Shown one piece after another: positions 1-58,345 of a stretch of DNA of 58,365 nt (within the stretch, counting starts at the first letter, position 1; each line of letters starts with the position of its first letter). Position numbers and translations under genes: made by a program. The notes beneath the pieces were generated by a model. That model was given only the letters and a program-made list of their open reading frames with translations. It did no database searches and was not told where the DNA came from. The stretch comes from a virus. The stretch covers positions 1 to 58,365 of the IMG/VR virus record IMGVR_UViG_3300037189_006964, one strand, 5' to 3'.

Positions 1-306
1 ATCCCAAACATACAAATACCATTTACCATTCTTTTTAAAAGGAACTTCTTTTCCTCCAGAACCAATCTTCATGGGGAATTCAAAACCTTTATCCCAATTA
101 ACAGGAAATGCATCTCTTCTATCTTCGCTTTTGTTATATTCATCACGAACAACATCTCCTTTTAAATTAACCTTTCCTCCTAATGTCATTTTATGCTTTG
201 GTTGTTTTTTAACAACATCTCCGTTTAAATTCACATAATGATCGTCTTCTTTTAATACTTCTTTAGAATATAAACTCTCCAGTAAGACTTGGTCTTTGTT
301 TTTCAT
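1..306 (-). CDS. Putative capsid-targeted cargo protein A (partial, runs off left edge)
   Basis: The first 102 codons of a minus-strand gene are present; the 3' end lies outside the window. The protein begins MKNKDQVLLE-SLY, the same decapeptide leader found on five other proteins within 5 kb, ending in LLE, which matches the (L/I)xE cleavage signal of T4-type prohead proteases. By analogy with T4 internal head proteins it may be packaged in the capsid, trimmed after E10 and injected. The body is polar and unrecognised; it carries an internal near-repeat (VNLNGDVV about residues 25-32, VNLKGDVV about residues 46-53). A TAAATATA box ends 6 nt before the ATG. Leader and reading frame are seen; packaging is inferred; the function of the body is unknown. 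Confidence 0.75.
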   Translation of the reverse strand, partial: MKNKDQVLLESLYSKEVLKEDDHYVNLNGDVVKKQPKHKMTLGGKVNLKGDVVRDEYNKSEDRRDAFPVNWDKGFEFPMKIGSGGKEVPFKKNGKWYLYVWD

Positions 307-312
307 ATTTTA

Positions 313-320
313 TATATTTA
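313..320 (-). promoter_or_regulatory. Late-type box TAAATATA upstream of cargo gene A
   Basis: Minus-strand TAAATATA ends 6 nt before the ATG at 306. The same box precedes 5852(-), 16799(+) and 52760(-), and resembles the T4 late promoter core TATAAATA. No -35 element is visible. Confidence 0.45.
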
Positions 321-401
321 TCTTGTATTTGTCATTTCTATCAATATACTAATAATATTGTACATAATAAATGTTAATATAATGAATAATAAAAAATCCA
401 T
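318..401 (-). CDS. Possible 27-residue hydrophobic peptide
   Basis: A minus-strand ORF from an ATG at 401 encodes a 27-residue, almost wholly hydrophobic peptide (starts MDFLLFIILTF, ends EMTNTR) that could be a single membrane segment. It lies in the 230-bp gap between cargo genes and ends just upstream of the late-type box of the gene at 306. No Shine-Dalgarno sequence is seen, and AT-rich DNA readily gives hydrophobic ORFs by chance, so this is only a candidate. Confidence 0.2.
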   Translation of the reverse strand: MDFLLFIILTFIMYNIISILIEMTNTR

Positions 402-478
402 AATCTCTTATATACTTAGTTTCTTTCGCAAGGAATTCAATAATTTGCTTCTTTATGGCTTTTATCTATAGATGCTAA

Positions 479-517
479 AATACCACACCCTGTATTGATT
501 TTACATAGTGTGGTATT
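479..517 (-). terminator. Hairpin terminator after the 536-946 gene
   Basis: A perfect 10-bp inverted repeat, AATACCACAC (479-488) with GTGTGGTATT (508-517), plus an inner 4-bp TGTA/TACA stem. Read on the minus strand it lies just downstream of the stop of the gene at 536-946 and is followed by TTTTAG, as in an intrinsic terminator. Confidence 0.65.
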
Positions 518-535
518 AAAACTTGTTTATTTATA

Positions 536-946
536 TTAAACTGGTTCTCCCTTTCCATTAAAAGCAGGGGGATTGACTTCATATGGATTTTTCATATTGT
601 CTTTATAGTTTTTTCTAATATATCTTCTTAGGTCCAATCTCTCTTCAAATGTTAATTGATGTCCATCAACCCAAACTTCTTGACCTTCGCTTTCTATATT
701 AATAATTTGGTTTGCATATTTTAATTGTGCCGACCAATTATCAAATTCACTTGTATTTAATTTTATTCCTTGGAATCTTCCATCTCCATCTCTATCCCAA
801 TCACTTTTATCATTTATATGAGTAAATGAATTGTTTGGTCTTATTCTTGTTCCTATTCCTTGTACTCCATGGGGATTAATCATCAATGGATTTTTAACTA
901 CTTTATCGTATTCTTGTTCTAATAATAGTTGGTCTTTGTTTTTCAT
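536..946 (-). CDS. Putative capsid-targeted cargo protein B
   Basis: 136 residues starting MKNKDQLLLE-QEY: the shared decapeptide leader with a predicted prohead-protease site after E10. The mature part would be about 126 residues, rich in Asn, Asp and Arg, with a DRDGDG stretch near residue 52 that resembles a calcium-binding loop, and a basic helix (ERLDLRRYIRKNYK) near residues 102-115. No enzyme family is recognised. The gene follows 950-1771 with a 3-nt gap (same strand, likely co-transcribed) and ends at the hairpin at 479-517. Function unknown; injection is inferred from the leader only. Confidence 0.75.
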   Translation of the reverse strand: MKNKDQLLLEQEYDKVVKNPLMINPHGVQGIGTRIRPNNSFTHINDKSDWDRDGDGRFQGIKLNTSEFDNWSAQLKYANQIINIESEGQEVWVDGHQLTFEERLDLRRYIRKNYKDNMKNPYEVNPPAFNGKGEPV

Positions 947-949
947 AGA

Positions 950-1771
950 TTATTTTGCTCTTGTATATTTAGATGTATACCATGCTTTCAATTCGGGATC
1001 GCTATTCATTCTTTTCTTGAATGCTACTTCTGCCGCTTTTGAATTTAGGACTTGTTTCAATTCTTCTCTTGATACCTCTGGATTACCAAACACTCTTTCC
1101 ACACTTGCATTTAATGGAATTGTTCCCTTTGGCTTTTTCCCTTCAAATTTAACTGGTTTGACTGGTTTTCCTTCTTCATCTTTAATTTGATCCACCTGTA
1201 TTCCCTTGAATCTATTTGTTCTTAAAAATATTGTACCATGAACCTTATCCTCTGCATCAAAGCTAAGTCTTGTGACATATGGTAATCTATCTGTTCCGAA
1301 ATAGAAAATCTCATCTGGTTCTGGAACTTGTTCTTGGCTTATACTTCTTCTATCCACTGCCTTGAACTTAACGTGATTGCTATATAAATTAAACCATGGT
1401 CTATATACCAAAGGCCAGCTTGTAACTTTTGTTTCTGGAGTAATCTTTGTATAATCGTGTTCTGGTCTATTGGAAATTTGTAATGCTCTTTGGATTTCCC
1501 CCCGAACATCTAAACTTTTCCCTGCTTTTGTTGTTAATCTTGGACCAAATTCATTTAGAATATTTATAATTTCAATTGTAACCTTTAGGGATTCATTATC
1601 CAATCTATAGTTTTCAGGATGGGTTTTTAAAACGGCAGCATTTCTTTCCAATGTTTTGAAATTGTCTGCCAGTTTTTTTATTGCTTCTTCTACTGACTTA
1701 ATACCAGTTGATCCTCCCATGTATCCCCCTGCCTCATTTAACAGTTGGCTTATTCTTTTATTGAAATTCAT
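950..1771 (-). CDS. Putative capsid-associated protein with LNE leader
   Basis: 273 residues. The N-terminus MNFNKRISQLLNEAGG is unlike the KDQ decapeptide but also ends in LxE followed by Ala-Gly (LNE|AG), the favoured (L/I)xE|A type of T4 prohead protease site. The rest has a helical N-terminal third (residues 25-110) and a basic C-terminal half containing VKPVKFEGKKPKG and a Lys-rich end. No known family is recognised. It could be an internal head protein, a scaffold-like protein or another injected factor. A TAAGTAAT box ends 10 nt before the ATG, a layout shared with 40969(-). Confidence is high for the gene and moderate for the capsid inference. Confidence 0.75.
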   Translation of the reverse strand: MNFNKRISQLLNEAGGYMGGSTGIKSVEEAIKKLADNFKTLERNAAVLKTHPENYRLDNESLKVTIEIINILNEFGPRLTTKAGKSLDVRGEIQRALQISNRPEHDYTKITPETKVTSWPLVYRPWFNLYSNHVKFKAVDRRSISQEQVPEPDEIFYFGTDRLPYVTRLSFDAEDKVHGTIFLRTNRFKGIQVDQIKDEEGKPVKPVKFEGKKPKGTIPLNASVERVFGNPEVSREELKQVLNSKAAEVAFKKRMNSDPELKAWYTSKYTRAK

Positions 1772-1781
1772 ATATGATATT

Positions 1782-1789
1782 ATTACTTA
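1782..1789 (-). promoter_or_regulatory. Late-type box TAAGTAAT
   Basis: Minus-strand TAAGTAAT ends 10 nt before the ATG at 1771, overlapping the stop codon of the small gene 1787-1966. The same sequence and spacing occur before 40969(-). Confidence 0.35.
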
Positions 1790-1966
1790 CAAAAATTCTT
1801 TCAAAATTGCACAAACAAATATGATTGCCAAAAATGCAATTATTATCAATCCCGATATCCAGATTGGACTGAATACCCAAAACCAAGACCAGTCGATTTT
1901 GTCGAATGCTTTAAGTAAAACAAACAAGCATGTTAGTAGAGTTACTCCAGAAAAATTGATTTTCAT
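1787..1966 (-). CDS. Small membrane protein (59 residues)
   Basis: A 59-codon minus-strand ORF. The product has two probable membrane segments (about residues 7-19 and 37-54) joined by an aromatic stretch, WSWFWVFSPIWI, at residues 26-37. This Trp-rich WSWxWVxxPxWI pattern is common in short phage-encoded membrane proteins of unknown role. A good sigma70-like promoter (1973-2001) sits directly upstream, with its -10 box 6 nt before the ATG, which strengthens the case for a real gene and suggests early expression. It lies between two cargo genes but lacks the LLE leader. Confidence 0.7.
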   Translation of the reverse strand: MKINFSGVTLLTCLFVLLKAFDKIDWSWFWVFSPIWISGLIIIAFLAIIFVCAILKEFL

Positions 1967-1972
1967 TCCTAG

Positions 1973-2001
1973 ATTTTATGTTATTAAGAGATTAAAGTCA
2001 A
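1973..2001 (-). promoter_or_regulatory. Sigma70-like promoter for the small membrane gene
   Basis: On the minus strand TTGACT (1996-2001), a 17-nt spacer, and TAAAAT (1973-1978). The -10 box ends 6 nt before the ATG at 1966, so the transcript would be leaderless or nearly so. Confidence 0.6.
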
Positions 2002-2023
2002 TTATTTTTTTATTTATTTTTGT

Positions 2024-2050
2024 AATACATTGTTAATCAACAAATGTATT
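2024..2050. other. Imperfect hairpin in intergenic region
   Basis: Inverted repeat AATACATTGTT / AACAAATGTATT around a short AATC loop, with one bulged T. A T-run follows on the plus side (CATTTTTTTAA), so it would terminate plus-strand transcripts best, though no plus-strand gene is evident here. It may instead protect the 3' end of the minus-strand transcript of 2137-2808. Confidence 0.35.
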
Positions 2051-2082
2051 CATTTTTTTAATTCAAAAAATAGGATTTTTTC

Positions 2083-2134
2083 CCCACTTTTTCCCACTTT
2101 TGATTACTTTTTTCCGATTTTTGATTACTTTTTT
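2083..2134 (-). repeat. Short direct repeats in the 1967-2136 gap
   Basis: On the minus strand AAAAAAGTAATCAAAA occurs twice (2119-2134 and 2098-2113), followed by two copies of AAAAGTGGG (within 2083-2100). The block lies directly after the stop of the kinase-like gene. No ORF explains it. It could be a regulatory or recombination element or simple slippage. Confidence 0.5.
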
Positions 2135-2136
2135 AC

Positions 2137-2808
2137 TCAATTTACCTTATAATAATCGTCCCAAACCGACTCCGTAAGACCAAAATCAACCAAAACCACA
2201 CTAGGACTCCCTTCTCTTAGAACCTCTCCATATGAATTAACCCTACCAAAATCCCCCGGATATTTCATTCCAAAATTCATAATCATATCTACAAGGGAAG
2301 TTAAAAATTCATTGTTGTTTACCTTTTCTGCAAACTCATTTTGCAAATCTTTTAATTGTTCAGGGCTTAAATATTTTCTCCTAGAACTATTATTTAATGT
2401 TTCCATGACACGAAGAATATCCTGTACTTCATTTACACTCACACCAGTTAATTGCTTAAATCTATTTGGTGATATTTTCTTTGCTAGTTCCATCTCTACC
2501 CAAAAATGATCTTCGTTTGTATCAAATATCTTTGCAACTATGTCTGACATTCTTTGTAATCCCCAATCTGATTCTATTGAGTTTTGCCCCAAACCTTTTT
2601 TATTCTTGGCAATTTTTAAAACCTTTTCTTCATCAACCTTATATACAACCCTTGCACTACCGGAAGATATTTTTTTTAATCTTTCATTTGCATATTTCAA
2701 TTTACCATTATACGTATTTATCTTATTAAACTCTTCAAAAGAAAAACTTACAGGATATGCCATCTCTGTATATAAATTCTCCAGTAATATTTGATCCTTG
2801 TTTTTCAT
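2137..2808 (-). CDS. Putative capsid-targeted protein kinase-like protein
   Basis: 223 residues beginning MKNKDQILLE-NLY, the shared predicted capsid-targeting leader. The body has a kinase-like order of motifs: a Gly/Ser loop and strand (GSARVVYKVD, 50-59), a candidate ATP lysine in VLKIA (K65), an acidic helix region, then D186 and N191 in PGDFGRVNSYG resembling a degenerate catalytic loop, and a metal-binding VDFG at 207-210. Spacing between the last two motifs is short, and a canonical HRD is absent, so this is a minimal or divergent kinase fold. If packaged, it would be a kinase delivered at infection, functionally comparable to injected modifying enzymes such as T4 Alt. It overlaps the 2805-3677 gene by 4 nt (ATGA), indicating translational coupling. 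The leader is seen; kinase activity is inferred. Confidence 0.7.
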   Translation of the reverse strand: MKNKDQILLENLYTEMAYPVSFSFEEFNKINTYNGKLKYANERLKKISSGSARVVYKVDEEKVLKIAKNKKGLGQNSIESDWGLQRMSDIVAKIFDTNEDHFWVEMELAKKISPNRFKQLTGVSVNEVQDILRVMETLNNSSRRKYLSPEQLKDLQNEFAEKVNNNEFLTSLVDMIMNFGMKYPGDFGRVNSYGEVLREGSPSVVLVDFGLTESVWDDYYKVN

Positions 2809-3677
2809 CTTATACTATTTATGGTTTTTTTCATATATGGATAAGGTTCTTCTCTTGGACGTTCTCTTTTATAAAATCTTAAAGTTTTATCTATTTCATT
2901 TGCTATATCCAACATCTGACTATGAGTTCCGCGTCCCTTGAAGTCTTCCACGAATGATAACATTTTTAAATTTGGGTTTTTCTTATTGTTATTTATTATA
3001 AATTGTTTAATAACATTTCCCAATAATTTAATACATTCTTGTTGTAAACTTGCATCAAATGGAGTCTGAAGTCTGGAATTTACATTAAACAATTTTTTCC
3101 AATCATCTGTCATTAAACCCGATCTCTGAACTGGATCGGAAAATAAACCTGGGTTGTCATATTGCGGAAAAGATCCCCACATATCGGAAGGAACTATAGC
3201 AAGTGGCTCGGAAATTGTAACGAAATATAAATTACCATATTCTTTTCTAATTTGATTATAACTTTTATAATTTCCTTTACAGGCATTTTCCCAAGGTTTG
3301 GTTTTCGCACAAGGAACAAATATAACGGTATCATATTCTCTTGGAACTATATGATTTACTATGTCAGTGTGCCATTTTTTAATTATTGGATTGTTAAATA
3401 AATTCCAAGTTTCTCCAGGAGTATATGCTGTTAGACTTGGATCAGTCTTTGAATTTGATTCTAAACTTCTCAATAGCATATATTTTCTAAAATAAGGCCA
3501 TTGCTCTTTAGACACAAAGTTACTTGTTCCCAATTGACTTATTTCAATTTCCGAAAGATTCTTAAATGAATTTGCCTTTTCTTCTTCTGTTAAATTTGTT
3601 GGATATTGGACGCCACGTTGAGATTCAAATATAGAAATATACAAATTCTCTAGTAAGATTTGGTCCTTGCTTCTCAT
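2805..3677 (-). CDS. Putative capsid-targeted DUF5591-like protein
   Basis: 290 residues starting MRSKDQILLE-NLY (shared leader). The central part (about 115-200) holds VIFVPCAKTKPWENA with C123, then LYFVTISEPLAIVPSDMW (150-167) and a PQYDNPG segment. This arrangement (VPCxxxKP ... SEPLxxVP ... P.YD) is characteristic of the DUF5591 domain found at the C-terminus of archaeosine tRNA-guanine transglycosylases and in standalone phage or bacterial proteins. A C-terminal basic region follows. The biochemical role of the domain is not established; a link to nucleotide or tRNA modification is a guess. A 1-nt gap separates it from 3679-4335. Confidence 0.7.
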   Translation of the reverse strand: MRSKDQILLENLYISIFESQRGVQYPTNLTEEEKANSFKNLSEIEISQLGTSNFVSKEQWPYFRKYMLLRSLESNSKTDPSLTAYTPGETWNLFNNPIIKKWHTDIVNHIVPREYDTVIFVPCAKTKPWENACKGNYKSYNQIRKEYGNLYFVTISEPLAIVPSDMWGSFPQYDNPGLFSDPVQRSGLMTDDWKKLFNVNSRLQTPFDASLQQECIKLLGNVIKQFIINNNKKNPNLKMLSFVEDFKGRGTHSQMLDIANEIDKTLRFYKRERPREEPYPYMKKTINSIR

Positions 3678-3678
3678 A

Positions 3679-4335
3679 TTATTTTACGCCTTTGACCCAC
3701 ATATAATCTTCTCCTCTATTCATATATTGTTTTAGTAATATTTCATCACAATTAAAACTTGATAGGTTTGGAGAAATTTTTTTGCTAACTTCATTATATT
3801 CAAAATTTTCTCTTCCTCTTTCTTCTCTTGCTTTAATTCTATTTATAAGCATATCGGGAATTCTTCTATTGTCATGTGGAAATCTTTCGTCCGAATTCCA
3901 CCATTCCGGTAGTTTATCTTTATATATGTATTCAGAATGTTTATGAGGATTATATGTAACAGATTTCCAATCTCCGCTAGAAATTATATTTGGTATTTTA
4001 TCAAAACCAAAATCCAAATCGACTATAGTTCCCGTTACCAGTATGTTAGGAGTCTTTTGTCCCAACTTTGGATTTAGTTGAACTGCATTAATTTTATCAT
4101 GTTTTATTGTAGATGTGCAATTTTTTAACAACAAGGTTTTTGTATTATGAACAACAATTTTATTTAATTTTATAGACCATGCCATATATAAAGGTTGTTT
4201 TTCTGGTGTACCTTGAATTGCTGGGTGTACTTCAACTTTCTCTCCAATCAATTCATGTGAATTAGCCATAATAGCCTTTTCTTCATAAATTAATTCATAA
4301 ATATTCTCCAGTAATATTTGGTCTTTGTCTTTCAT
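3679..4335 (-). CDS. Putative capsid-targeted cargo protein C
   Basis: 218 residues starting MKDKDQILLE-NIY, with the predicted (L/I)xE site after E10. The body appears to have a beta-rich central region (about 50-125) with alternating hydrophobics, e.g. NILVTGTIVDLDFGFD, and a charged helical stretch (RIKAREERGRENFEY) near residues 168-182. No family is recognised. The gene overlaps 4332-4706 by 4 nt (ATGA), so the two are probably translated together. Function unknown; capsid delivery is inferred from the leader. Confidence 0.75.
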   Translation of the reverse strand: MKDKDQILLENIYELIYEEKAIMANSHELIGEKVEVHPAIQGTPEKQPLYMAWSIKLNKIVVHNTKTLLLKNCTSTIKHDKINAVQLNPKLGQKTPNILVTGTIVDLDFGFDKIPNIISSGDWKSVTYNPHKHSEYIYKDKLPEWWNSDERFPHDNRRIPDMLINRIKAREERGRENFEYNEVSKKISPNLSSFNCDEILLKQYMNRGEDYMWVKGVK

Positions 4336-4706
4336 GATAAACTATTTGGTTTTTTAATCTTTATAACAATTTCACCATATGCTTCCAACACACCCATATA
4401 ATGTTGGAAATCTCTTTGTGACATTTCTTTCCAATTCTTTAACTTATCAAATACCTCATCCGCTTTCTTTGCAATATTTTCAAGACTATCAAAATTATTT
4501 GAACAATATTCGTATGGTTTTTCCTTTGCCTTAAAATGTACAGAAGTTAATAATGCTGGTCCACCTTTTGCTTGTGCTTGTTGCTGAATTTTTTTTGCAC
4601 CAGCAGAACGTTTATCGATAAATTCATCAATCGCAATACTTTCTTTTTTTTCTAAAAGAATTTCATTATAAATATTTTCCAATAGTATTTGATCCTTGCT
4701 TCTCAT
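4332..4706 (-). CDS. Putative capsid-targeted cargo protein D
   Basis: 124 residues starting MRSKDQILLE-NIY; its first ten residues are identical to the leader of 2805-3677. A second LLE follows at residues 17-19 (EILLEKK), giving two possible prohead-protease sites. The remainder is small, basic and helical (KKIQQQAQAKGG; NIAKKADEVFDKLKNW), reminiscent in size and charge of T4 internal proteins, with no recognisable fold. First gene of the cargo run after the GP88-like gene, 9 nt downstream of it. Confidence 0.75.
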   Translation of the reverse strand: MRSKDQILLENIYNEILLEKKESIAIDEFIDKRSAGAKKIQQQAQAKGGPALLTSVHFKAKEKPYEYCSNNFDSLENIAKKADEVFDKLKNWKEMSQRDFQHYMGVLEAYGEIVIKIKKPNSLS

Positions 4707-4715
4707 TTATATTAT

Positions 4716-5852
4716 TTAATGTATTATCAAATATGTACCTCTAACATCTCTTCTACTTGCGGAAAGATCTGATTCGCCAGGCAACACTATTACATTATAT
4801 TGTCCACTAGCACCTTCTGGCGTTTTGCTCAATTCGTCGATGGTGAGAATTGTTTTTGGATCTAGTTTATATCTTTGTGCTATAACTTGTTTAGTTGCGT
4901 CTGAATCATTATATTCCCAATTCTTTCCTTTCTTCTCTATGTATTTAAATCTAATAATAGCACTAAGAACTGGTTCTTTGATTTTATCTTTAGTATCAAC
5001 AATGTAAGAAACCTTATCTTTTACGGGGTCGATTAGTTTTTCTTGATCTCTTTTAGCGCCATAAGAGTAATTGAATATTACATTTTGTGGTGGGTTTGGA
5101 TATGCTTTTATCATGGCAACTTCCTTGGTATAAATATAATGATCTACCATAGGCGTGTTGTTAACAATACCCATAACAATATCGAAAAATTTTGGAGAAA
5201 GCAAATCACCCGAATCATTCCACCTAATCTGTACTTTCTTTTTACCTTTAAATCTTTTTGCAACCTTCACTATTTCATTTTCCAATTGTCGTTTGAATCC
5301 ATCAGAATCATTAAAAAGATAGTTCAATGCTTTATTCTGTGATATTGAAACTTCTGGAAACAAAACATAAGATCCGTGTTTTGCATAACAAACTAATTGA
5401 CAGTTACCAGCAGATGGACATGTGTCAACGATTTTAAATTCACCAGTGCCTTCATCTACGACCAATCCCTTCAATGCTGGTAATGATGTATTAAAAAACT
5501 CCGTATCGAATGTACGGCTTTTTATCATTTTTTCATTTTGTCTCAGTAATGCATCGGGTCTTTGCATCAATATTTGTCTAAATTTATCAATATCAACTGT
5601 TTCTCCTTCAGCAGTTTGAACTAAAACTTTATTTGCAATAGATGCATGTATATGAGGCATCGTCAAATAGTCTGATGTTTTCTTAGGATTTTCTTTATTA
5701 GTTCTTTTTTTTGTTATCACTCTATTGATATATTCTATCAATTTTCCGGAATCTAGGGGTCTTGTTCCTCCCATCGAAGAATCAAATGCTTCGTTTATGT
5801 GTGTTTTACTTGTTGATCCCAACACCTCTTCAATCAATAATCTAAGATTCAT
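4716..5852 (-). CDS. GP88-family Cys-cluster protein with predicted capsid-targeting N-terminus
   Basis: 378 residues. A Cys cluster C145-x5-C151-x3-C155 (CPSAGNCQLVCYA) is followed by a long region with IRWNDSGDLLSPKFF (209-223), IYTKE and NVIFNYSYG. This order matches the GP88-type phage protein family (named after mycobacteriophage gp88), whose Cys cluster is thought to bind an iron-sulfur cluster; biochemical function is unknown. The first residues MNLRLLIEE contain LIE|E, and HINEAFD contains INE|A (18-21), both fitting the (L/I)xE prohead-protease rule, so it may be trimmed and packaged like its neighbours. Upstream on the minus strand is a TAAATATA box 4 nt before the ATG. It is divergent from 5936-6241. 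Confidence 0.75.
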   Translation of the reverse strand: MNLRLLIEEVLGSTSKTHINEAFDSSMGGTRPLDSGKLIEYINRVITKKRTNKENPKKTSDYLTMPHIHASIANKVLVQTAEGETVDIDKFRQILMQRPDALLRQNEKMIKSRTFDTEFFNTSLPALKGLVVDEGTGEFKIVDTCPSAGNCQLVCYAKHGSYVLFPEVSISQNKALNYLFNDSDGFKRQLENEIVKVAKRFKGKKKVQIRWNDSGDLLSPKFFDIVMGIVNNTPMVDHYIYTKEVAMIKAYPNPPQNVIFNYSYGAKRDQEKLIDPVKDKVSYIVDTKDKIKEPVLSAIIRFKYIEKKGKNWEYNDSDATKQVIAQRYKLDPKTILTIDELSKTPEGASGQYNVIVLPGESDLSASRRDVRGTYLIIH

Positions 5853-11263: not shown

Positions 11264-11956
11264 TTACTTTTTTTGTTGTTTTAAAAATGTATTGTAATCT
11301 CTCCAATATCTTAAAGGCTCAGATACATCTTCCTTTGCTGGACCTGTCATAATAGCCATTAACACCATAGGGTTGTTGTTGCTATCTCTAACAATGCCAT
11401 CATCGGGTTCATTAAAATATCCTTCCTCTTCTTCCATTTTAATGTTCTGTATAGGTAATTTACTTTTATCGTAAATTTGCCAATATGGTGCTTCTTCTGT
11501 TTGAGAAAAAACATATTTCTGAGAAGGGTTTCCCTTCTCATCAGTTAAAGCTATTCCGTAGTTACCAGAGCTATCCATCGTTTTTGTAACTTTTCCAAAA
11601 ACAGTTGCATTTGGCATTATTGTAACCACTGGAGGTGGAAATGTTTTGGGGTTTTCTGGATCATTAGCTAATGCTGGATCTGGATTAAATTTTGGATTAG
11701 GTTTTGCTTTACCAACACCAAGTATAGGTGCTATTGTAACAGCTATTTGATTTAATTTGGGTTGATTTTTTAAAGAAAATGATTGGCTTTTTAATTGTTC
11801 TTTATTTGCATTTAATTGACTAATTCCACTAGCTATGGTTTTAATTCCTTGTGATGGATCTTTAGCAGCATTTAAAGCAGCACCAACACCAGTTGCTATG
11901 TTGCCAAGTATATTTTCTTGCAACAACGCATTAACTCTTAAATCAAAATTATTCAT
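11264..11956 (-). CDS. Putative capsid-associated protein with LQE leader
   Basis: 230 residues from the ATG at 11956 (an upstream in-frame ATG at 11980 would add eight residues and hide the leader). The N-terminus MNNFDLRVNALLQE-NIL contains LQE|N, an (L/I)xE prohead-protease type site at residues 12-14, like the cargo cluster at 1-6 kb. After it comes a Gly/Ala-rich hydrophobic stretch (NIATGVGAALNAA), a Pro/Asn-rich middle (about 85-125), and an acidic C-terminal domain. No family is recognised. It faces the plus-strand adhesin module across a 63-bp divergent region with two late-type boxes, which fits a late, packaged protein. Confidence 0.65.
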   Translation of the reverse strand: MNNFDLRVNALLQENILGNIATGVGAALNAAKDPSQGIKTIASGISQLNANKEQLKSQSFSLKNQPKLNQIAVTIAPILGVGKAKPNPKFNPDPALANDPENPKTFPPPVVTIMPNATVFGKVTKTMDSSGNYGIALTDEKGNPSQKYVFSQTEEAPYWQIYDKSKLPIQNIKMEEEEGYFNEPDDGIVRDSNNNPMVLMAIMTGPAKEDVSEPLRYWRDYNTFLKQQKK

Positions 11957-11961
11957 AAAAT

Positions 11962-11969
11962 TATACTTA
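11962..11969 (-). promoter_or_regulatory. Late-type box TAAGTATA (leftward)
   Basis: Minus-strand TAAGTATA ends 5 nt before the ATG at 11956. It pairs with the rightward TAAGTATT at 12001-12008, so both divergent genes have the same box. Confidence 0.45.
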
Positions 11970-12000
11970 CATTCAACCACAAATAAATCATATTTTCTAG

Positions 12001-56020: not shown

Positions 56021-57823
56021 TTAATAATCGGTTACTGATATAGTATTACCTGAATCTATAATTTTTATTCTTTTTATTAAATTTTCAATATCGTTAAAAG
56101 CTGCGTATTGAAAATAATCTAATTTAAAATTAAAATTATGAACTTTTACATCTAAGTTGGGATATGTTTTATTCCAACATAAAAGAGATAAGCCATCTAT
56201 GTATGTGTCAGTGTCACTTCTATAGGTTTTAATTTTATCTACGCCATCTAAATTTATTATATCTGATGAAATTTGATTAATGTCAATATCATAAGATAAC
56301 TTAACTAAATTTTTACTAAAAGCGTTTTTGATTATTTTCATTACATCATTTATAATTCCCAAATTAGATTGTCTAGCATTATTTTTTTTGTAAATTAATA
56401 ATACGCTTTCATTAATATCATTTATTGTTGAATCTGTATATGGTGATTTTGCATAAAAATCAAATAACATATAAATTGGATCCATTGGAATGATTTCAGA
56501 CGTTATAACTTTTTGATCTTGGAGATCGTTGATTAAAATTTCCTTTTGCGCCGATGATATATATTTTTCACTTCCATTTTTTGGAACAATGTATGCATAT
56601 ATATTATTAAAATTACAACTATTTGAAAATTTAATCTGATTATATAATATTGAATTATCTAGTTGTGGCGATTTTATACCAATATCATAAAGATATTTAA
56701 TATGTCCTTTTAAATAATCTTCATTACCGACAACTTTGCAGTCAGAAAAAATATTTGAATAATTTGAAATTATATAATTTTCAAAATCATTTGCAGTAAC
56801 CAATCTTTGTTGATATGAAAAGTTTTTAGGGGCATTTTTCCTTATATCATCAACAGTTTCCTCTGGTGTATATGGGGTTGATGGAAAGTCATTATTTAAT
56901 GTAATCGATGATATATTGTATGAATTTAATATGATTGATTCATTTTTAACTGTGTCTTTTAAAATATTTGAATAACTATTACTGTTATATGTTACAATTT
57001 TAGATTTAGATAACGTGTTAGATGCTATTTGTGAGGAATTTGGATCTATTTTTAGATAATATATTATAATAGTATCTCCTGTGTTTAATTGTTTTCCGTT
57101 AATATTGTCTCCAAATTTAATTTCATAATTTTTATTTGGGTTATATCTTACTTCAAATGCATTATCTGTAGATTTCTTTAAAAATAAATTTTCACATCTT
57201 TCCCATTCTTTCCAAGTATTAGTATTAACTTCTTTTACATAAACATAAATGTTATTATGGTCTATATATGTTTCTTCTCCTAGATTTAAAAATATTACTT
57301 CATTAATACTTCCTAAAGCGGAATATGTTGGATATTCGTAAAATAAACCCTCATATAAAAAAAGATCCATTTCTGGATTTTGCATAGCTAGTGTACTGTC
57401 CGCTAAATAAGTAAAATATATATCTTTTGGAAAAGAAAAGAACAATGATCCCACTTTAATATTAGAATATCTTGGAACCATGTAGTTGTCCGATGATAAA
57501 GAAGCGTTTAAAGTAAATTTTACATTTTGTGATGTTTTTCCTTTTGGATTATAATTTAATAATTTTACAATCCTATTCATGTTTTCATATATCTGTGCTT
57601 CTGAAAACATAGTTTCTGATGATGTTTTATTTAAATAATATAACAACATACTGAAAGTGTAACTTATTACATCCATTAAAGATGATAAATTAGACCCTTG
57701 AAAATTTTGATCAGTAAATATTTGACTACTATTTAATTTTTCAATTATTAATTGGTTGATACTTGTGGCATCAAAACTAATGTATGAATTTTTATTATTT
57801 ATTAAATTTGTATTTGTTGCCAT
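56021..57823 (-). CDS. Baseplate wedge protein, gp6/baseplate-J-like
   Basis: 600 residues. N-terminal segment NLSSLMDVISYTFSMLLYYLNKTSSETMF, split near residues 44-72, is the usual helical start of gp6/gpJ-like wedge proteins. The diagnostic central part is DDIRKNAPKNFSYQQRLVTANDFENYI (split near residues 330-356), matching the apxxfrxQxRxVTxxDYexl motif. It forms the inner baseplate wedge ring around the tail tube and transmits the sheath contraction signal. Neighbour of the gp25-like gene, as in T4. Confidence 0.85.
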   Translation of the reverse strand: MATNTNLINNKNSYISFDATSINQLIIEKLNSSQIFTDQNFQGSNLSSLMDVISYTFSMLLYYLNKTSSETMFSEAQIYENMNRIVKLLNYNPKGKTSQNVKFTLNASLSSDNYMVPRYSNIKVGSLFFSFPKDIYFTYLADSTLAMQNPEMDLFLYEGLFYEYPTYSALGSINEVIFLNLGEETYIDHNNIYVYVKEVNTNTWKEWERCENLFLKKSTDNAFEVRYNPNKNYEIKFGDNINGKQLNTGDTIIIYYLKIDPNSSQIASNTLSKSKIVTYNSNSYSNILKDTVKNESIILNSYNISSITLNNDFPSTPYTPEETVDDIRKNAPKNFSYQQRLVTANDFENYIISNYSNIFSDCKVVGNEDYLKGHIKYLYDIGIKSPQLDNSILYNQIKFSNSCNFNNIYAYIVPKNGSEKYISSAQKEILINDLQDQKVITSEIIPMDPIYMLFDFYAKSPYTDSTINDINESVLLIYKKNNARQSNLGIINDVMKIIKNAFSKNLVKLSYDIDINQISSDIINLDGVDKIKTYRSDTDTYIDGLSLLCWNKTYPNLDVKVHNFNFKLDYFQYAAFNDIENLIKRIKIIDSGNTISVTDY

Positions 57824-57838
57824 TATAATAATTATCTT

Positions 57839-58345
57839 TTAAAACGAGACTTGTCCTCCTAATTCAGCAATCATATTTATAACATTTTGTTTATTTAATT
57901 CTAACAATTGATAATATATTGAAATTTTATAAAGATTTTCATCTTTTCTCGGAACAACTTCTACTTGGATAATTTTAACCCTTGGTTCATAATTTGAAAT
58001 ACTGTTTAATATCTCATTTCCTATAACTCTTGCATTTGTTTCGGTTATGGGTGTAAAAAGATACTGCTCTAAAGCGGAACCAAATTCTGGATTTAATATT
58101 TTTTGTCCCTTTTTTGTGGTAAAAATATTTCTAAGAGAATTTTTAATAGCATTTAAATCTAAATCAATTAATATATCATTACTATCAACCGGATTTAACC
58201 CATCTCCTATGTTTTGCGCTGTCACTAAATCTAAATGCAAATCACTATAAGTAAAACTTTTATCCGTAACAACGTTTGACAGTTGTGTGTTTGGATTATA
58301 GGTTTGTTTAGGTCTAATTAAATTATTTAAATCTATAACGGCCAT
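57839..58345 (-). CDS. Baseplate wedge protein gp25-like (gpW/gp25 family)
   Basis: 168 residues. TYSDLHLDLVTAQN (about 32-45), AIKNSLRNIFTTKKGQKILNPEFG and SALEQYLFTPI (about 69-105), and YEPRVKIIQVEVVP (about 129-142) are the conserved parts of the gpW/gp25 family: the strand-helix core with the GxxxxNPxFG turn. It is a small wedge component that nucleates sheath assembly at the baseplate. First gene of the minus-strand tail operon within the window. TAAGTATT lies 6 nt before the ATG. Confidence 0.9.
   Translation of the reverse strand: MAVIDLNNLIRPKQTYNPNTQLSNVVTDKSFTYSDLHLDLVTAQNIGDGLNPVDSNDILIDLDLNAIKNSLRNIFTTKKGQKILNPEFGSALEQYLFTPITETNARVIGNEILNSISNYEPRVKIIQVEVVPRKDENLYKISIYYQLLELNKQNVINMIAELGGQVSF

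Follow-up and report, generated by a model that had tools for sequence, protein, structure and literature searches.

Six minus-strand genes at the left end of a 58,365-base virus record (IMG/VR IMGVR_UViG_3300037189_006964, 28% G+C; this whole stretch is the window) encode proteins that begin with one shared leader, here called the KDQ leader. It is very probably, at about 0.85, a cleavable capsid-targeting propeptide of T4-like phages. A detachable T4-type capsid tag served by a gp21-type protease had been proposed from the window's letters alone (the sequence-only reading), and it remains the best-supported account, the evidence being that protease on leader-bearing contigs, sharp breakpoints where leaders are exchanged, the (L/I)xE-like glutamate that sits there, and an element resembling a late promoter. 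The six genes are:

1–306, minus strand: leader cargo gene 1, starting MKNKDQVLLES; at least 102 amino acids, the C-terminus lost at the left contig end; MKNKDQVLLESLYSKEVLKE; leader at about 247–306, with TAAATA upstream.
536–946, minus strand: leader cargo gene 2, starting MKNKDQLLLEQ; 136 amino acids; MKNKDQLLLEQEYDKVV; leader at about 887–946.
2137–2808, minus strand: leader cargo gene 3, starting MKNKDQILLEN; 223 amino acids, PHROG 4301, with kinase-like motifs; leader MKNKDQILLENLYTE (2764–2808).
2805–3677, minus strand: leader cargo gene 4, starting MRSKDQILLEN; 290 amino acids, with a DUF5591/archaeosine-synthase-like stretch at residues 76–174; leader MRSKDQILLENLYISIFE (3624–3677).
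3679–4335, minus strand: leader cargo gene 5, starting MKDKDQILLEN; 218 amino acids, with a weak L5 gp82-like domain; leader MKDKDQILLENIYELIYEE (4279–4335).
4332–4706, minus strand: leader cargo gene 6, starting MRSKDQILLEN; 124 amino acids; leader MRSKDQILLENIYNEILLE (4650–4706), with both LxE sites present.

All six exist as open reading frames with ATG starts, as had been claimed, and the start common to them is M(K/R)xKDQ(I/V/L)LLExxY. The bodies behind it, said to be wholly different, show no detectable similarity to each other and match different families or none.

The leader, its spread and its cargo

A search of IMG/VR for DNA fitting the pattern ATG-(K/R)-x-K-D-Q-x-L-L-E matched at least 117 stretches. 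K4, D5, Q6, L8, L9 and E10 are imposed by this pattern, and no weight is given to their being conserved. By a position-specific score derived from a non-redundant set of leaders, about 275 leader open reading frames in the retrieved DNA exceed the threshold of 6, and no shuffled N-terminus does. [Weak scorers at six loci, starting MKLKDQMFLEQQ... or in close forms, were rejected as members, being a separate protein family, and excluded from the leader set.] More KDQxLLE starts elsewhere, which were to be looked for on the sequence-only reading, are plentiful: once whole contigs are added, there are at least 213 distinct leader proteins, whose bodies form at least 91 clusters without matches between them, and six contigs of 143–217 kb carry 3–10 leader genes each.

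At positions left free by the pattern, Y13 is kept in 65 of 67 clusters and I or V at residue 16 in 55 of the 67. A second (L/I)xE is present at residues 16–21 in 42 of 91 clusters (shuffle mean 5.7, maximum 15, in 2,000 trials); the control positions 28–31 and 38–41 each have one in 3/91. Because Y13, I/V16 and the second (L/I)xE are conserved outside the imposed pattern, the leader extends to about 18–20 residues. The supposed decapeptide is thus a real and widespread shared tag but is not limited to 10 residues; judged from its residues, the conserved unit has Y13, I/V16 and often an LxE at 18–20, and so two candidate cut sites. Two 22-residue versions of the leader, used in tblastn against 50,697 phage records, matched nothing at E ≤10; either the leader is absent from cultured phages or the query is too short for detection. 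The papers searched contained no report of the KDQ leader.

Only a minority of the cargo is recognised by Pfam or NCBIfam. One is a CCA-adding tRNA nucleotidyltransferase at L032 (PolyA_pol head, E 6e-24, plus an HD domain). Alignments with its homologues from other phages mostly begin at residue 56–59, which fits an N-terminus having been added. GP88, GNAT acetyltransferases and the archaeosine-synthase-like stretch are also recognised, and L012 and L052 have weak PARP/ADP-ribosyltransferase matches, below cut-off. Some secreted-effector NCBIfam names that occur among the cargo are single weak whole-protein matches. For the product of 2137–2808, motifs alone (glycine-rich GSARVVY, VLKIAK, DFGRVN and VDFGL) suggest a kinase-like protein; its AlphaFold model (pLDDT 52.8) was too poor for a fold search, and a profile search of PDB gave only weak matches, the best being to the kinase SteC at E 0.066. 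A protein search of viral contigs for relatives of 2805–3677 found nothing.

Exchange of leaders between bodies

The strongest evidence for the capsid-tag reading is that the same bodies, at 79–89% identity, stand behind either the KDQ leader or short leaders such as MKSFKQYIKE. The body of 2137–2808 follows MKSFKQYIKE at 87–89% identity and MATFSEYLFEE at 55% identity, the latter in the gp21-bearing contig G003. In the swap pair for this gene, DNA similarity begins at the last leader codon, with none upstream, and in a second pair (L096 with KDQ, L011 with MTFKEYFLE) the DNA breakpoint is again at the leader end. Homologues in the family of 4332–4706 carry KDQ, MNFKEYTTLSEE (L027; this swap is seen in the DNA too) or MKFDLLVES leaders. 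GP88 has KDQ in L025, where it is 75% identical to the window copy, RDTILLESLY in L052 and MNLRLLIEE in the window. Contigs G006 and G004 each carry both KDQ and short leaders. Leaders of the MKSFKQYIKE, MTFKEYFLE and MNFKEYTTLSEE types presumably resemble those of T4 internal proteins; a simple regular expression for short leaders gave only a modest excess over shuffles, and this class was left uncounted.

What persists while leaders change is best seen in the KRDRC cargo family, for which 80 loci were kept for N-terminus comparison from 439 relatives. These have 32 distinct N-termini, with a glutamate no more than 4 residues from the conserved body in 31 of the 32. The strict (L/I)xE is present in 23/32 and [LIF]xE in 29/32, as against 7.4 after shuffling. 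The glutamate is kept, together with a hydrophobic residue two before it.

The swap pairs show exchange directly; similarity of the leader DNA does not. The leader DNA had been claimed to be unusually similar and shuffling deduced from this, but synonymous identity among the six window leaders is 0.55, below the 0.69 expected from codon usage, and so by itself is not evidence of recent shuffling. Leader similarity does not exceed what protein conservation and codon usage give (synonymous identity is 0.65 within loci and 0.63 between them).

Two further leader-like starts are in the window, the first in a gene adjacent to the cargo genes:

4716–5852, minus strand: GP88-family protein, 378 amino acids, with the different leader MNLRLLIEEVLGSTSKTHINE (5790–5852).
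950–1771, minus strand: 273-amino-acid protein with the candidate short leader MNFNKRISQLLNE (1733–1771), assigned by motif only.

The in-frame start MNNFDLRVNALLQE of a protein of no recognised kind at 11264–11980 (minus strand) could be another short leader. At L092 (offset 711, minus strand) and L081 (offset 8387, minus strand) chimeric starts, MRSKDQILLDNISFKQYFLEKYKRM, consist of part of a KDQ leader fused to a short one and are likely a snapshot of leader exchange. About eleven adjacent proteins of G002 (L150, L151; contig of 174–197 kb) have a second module, NDKLxALKSF or close forms, either directly after a KD(Q/L) or MNFKQYLKE leader or alone. KDQ-leader proteins of about 290–330 amino acids at L052/L210 and L264 have a full C-terminal KRDRC domain behind an internal FELVE/QLIE site, an arrangement resembling that of a fused precursor to be cut internally.

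Protease, mechanism and alternative readings

Leader-bearing contigs of at least 140 kb have both gp21, the S77 prohead protease, and gp23, the capsid protein, in 6/6 cases, and gp21 is also on two shorter leader-bearing contigs. The gp20-gp21-gp22-gp23 order is intact. An HK97-type S78 protease was found in 0/36 contigs by a search that matched in 4 control genomes. The N-terminus of gp21 itself (...NLLVETPxYEL.YLVEE) has two LxE-like sites with spacing similar to that in the KDQ leader. [In contig G019, the gp21 gene (L157:1357–3135, minus strand) contains an intein (Pfam Intein_splicing at 9e-9, slightly below cut-off) within the conserved GELNHP-S/SPE motif, and the protease should therefore be inactive before splicing.] The window's structural genes match those of gp21-bearing G018 across most of their length:

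56021–57823, minus strand: baseplate wedge gp6-like protein, 59% identical to gp6 of G018, marking the contig as T4-like.
57839–58345, minus strand: gp25-like baseplate protein, 53% identical to gp25 of G018.

TAA(A/G)TA precedes 36 of 48 leader genes (75%), mostly 11–15 bases before the start, compared with 338 of 1218 other genes (28%); it is also before 11 of 17 head genes. The T4 late promoter is TATAAATA, and TAA(A/G)TA is close to its core, which suggests late expression of the leader genes.

From this we infer packaging, core recruitment, cleavage, injection and the host group. The tagged proteins would be made late, and their helical leaders would bring them into the prohead core. A cut by the gp21-family protease would follow, after a leader glutamate at LLE-10, at the second LxE at about 18–20, or at both, freeing the body inside the head to be packaged with the genome and to enter the host alongside it. 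Leader and upstream DNA are exchanged together as one module, among unrelated genes and with other leader types. The phages are probably a group infecting Bacteroidota. For a broader proposal the balance is about even: that aquatic T4-like phages share a pool of exchangeable, two-site cleavable tags, so that a leader cassette with its late promoter could convert a gene product into an injected effector.

Several points weigh against a cleavable capsid-targeting propeptide. The expected gp21-type protease was sought in the window's own record and not found, in contrast to the contigs of at least 140 kb; its lack there is due to the window being a 58-kb fragment. Contig G020 (124 kb) lacks both gp21 and gp23 and is uninformative. 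E10 came from the search pattern itself, and the strict second LxE is missing in about half of the clusters. Y13 and I16 are conserved past LLE-10, and a cut at residue 10 alone leaves them unexplained. At some exchange points FLE or YTE stands in place of the strict (L/I)xE. For none of the leader-bearing phages could virion proteomics be found.

The continuation of conservation through Y13 and I/V16, past the first LLE, and the clusters without a strict second LxE would also suit an uncleaved helix that docks the protein to a phage structure or complex (core, tail or intracellular compartment), with LxE being part of an amphipathic face. This is an unlikely alternative, as second-site LxE is enriched, the glutamate is kept at the exchange point behind very different leaders, and there is interchange with short T4-like leaders ending at the same point. 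Far less probable is descent of the tagged proteins from one ancestor, with the N-terminus kept and the rest diverged. Tagged genes are often in tandem arrays and some clusters hold several related members, but the cargo spans unrelated known families (the CCA-adding enzyme, GNAT and GP88) and bodies about 79–89% identical to each other are found behind different leaders. The least credible, with hardly any probability, is a 5′ coding or translation signal (an initiation region or a regulatory RNA) that was copied from gene to gene and has no role in the protein: the leader is at the very start and is exchanged together with the upstream region, and CTG is over-used at L9 (23 of 122 leaders, against 2% of Leu codons in the window), but conservation is at the amino-acid level with free synonymous change, and Y13, I/V16 and the LxE at 18–20 are residue patterns.

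Proteins that enter with phage DNA are the first to act against host defences, and apart from those of T4, T7 and the giant phages few are known. With a leader that can be recognised, candidate injected proteins can be listed from genomes or metagenomes (here at least 91 clusters, mostly of unknown function), each with a precise N-terminus predicted and open to test. Should the tag-and-cargo system be open, the tag alone would mark about 90 candidate injected families, including a pre-packaged tRNA CCA-repair enzyme. Leader exchange shows a possible route by which injected arsenals are assembled, and more tags could become available for filling T4-like capsids with chosen proteins.

Comparison with known systems

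T4 propeptides are 10–19 residues long and gp21 cuts them after L/I-X-E (PMC9026906). For IPIII, residues 1–10 are enough for packaging, with 4 and 7 acting in targeting and 8 and 10 in processing (PMC9026906); at these positions the KDQ leader has K4, I7, L8 and E10. Such capsid-targeting sequences may, reviews propose, let T4-like phages incorporate various proteins (PMC9026906). Like those of T4 IPI–IPIII and Alt (PMC9026906, PMC3012670), the KDQ leader is short, N-terminal, on unrelated small proteins or enzymes, has L/I-X-E and goes with a gp21-family protease. The cargo changes rapidly in both, and the weak ADP-ribosyltransferase match parallels Alt. The KDQ consensus KDQxLLExxYxxI differs from that of the T4 sequences, is longer (about 20 residues, near the top of the T4 propeptide range) and often has two LxE sites, the repertoire is far larger (at least 91 clusters), there is open exchange with other leader classes, and the hosts are uncultured.

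Giant phages phiKZ and SPN3US also deliver processed head proteins into the host, and the paralogues gp53/gp54 have an identical 15-residue N-terminus and candidate cut sites (PMC5694885). However, giant-phage propeptides are mostly over 100 residues with A-X-E or S-X-E cuts (PMC5694885), in contrast to the short KDQ leader on unrelated proteins.

The cultured Flavobacterium phage vB_FspM_immuto (MW353175) has a T4-like gp20/21/23 module; four of its proteins (L288–L289) share the leader (F)DLKKFLVENKLTxNSxLLKE with two LxE-like sites, and it has KRDRC- and KRSAGAKK-family relatives of KDQ cargo behind other leaders. It differs in that no KDQ leader was found in it, and no published virion proteomics was found for it in the papers searched. 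Further immuto proteins share MKKSQLRxIIKE-like starts. The phage offers a cultured test case for such tags. One immuto protein annotated as hypothetical (immuto26A_178; L288:18366–18806) has a kinase-like glycine loop, LGEGDYGAVF, behind the start MISIYNILKE.

The KDQ leader thus has those features of a T4-type capsid-targeting sequence that can be tested from sequence. The kind is already known; what is new is the leader consensus and its length, the second site, the breadth of cargo (about 90 clusters) and the direct evidence that leaders are exchanged.

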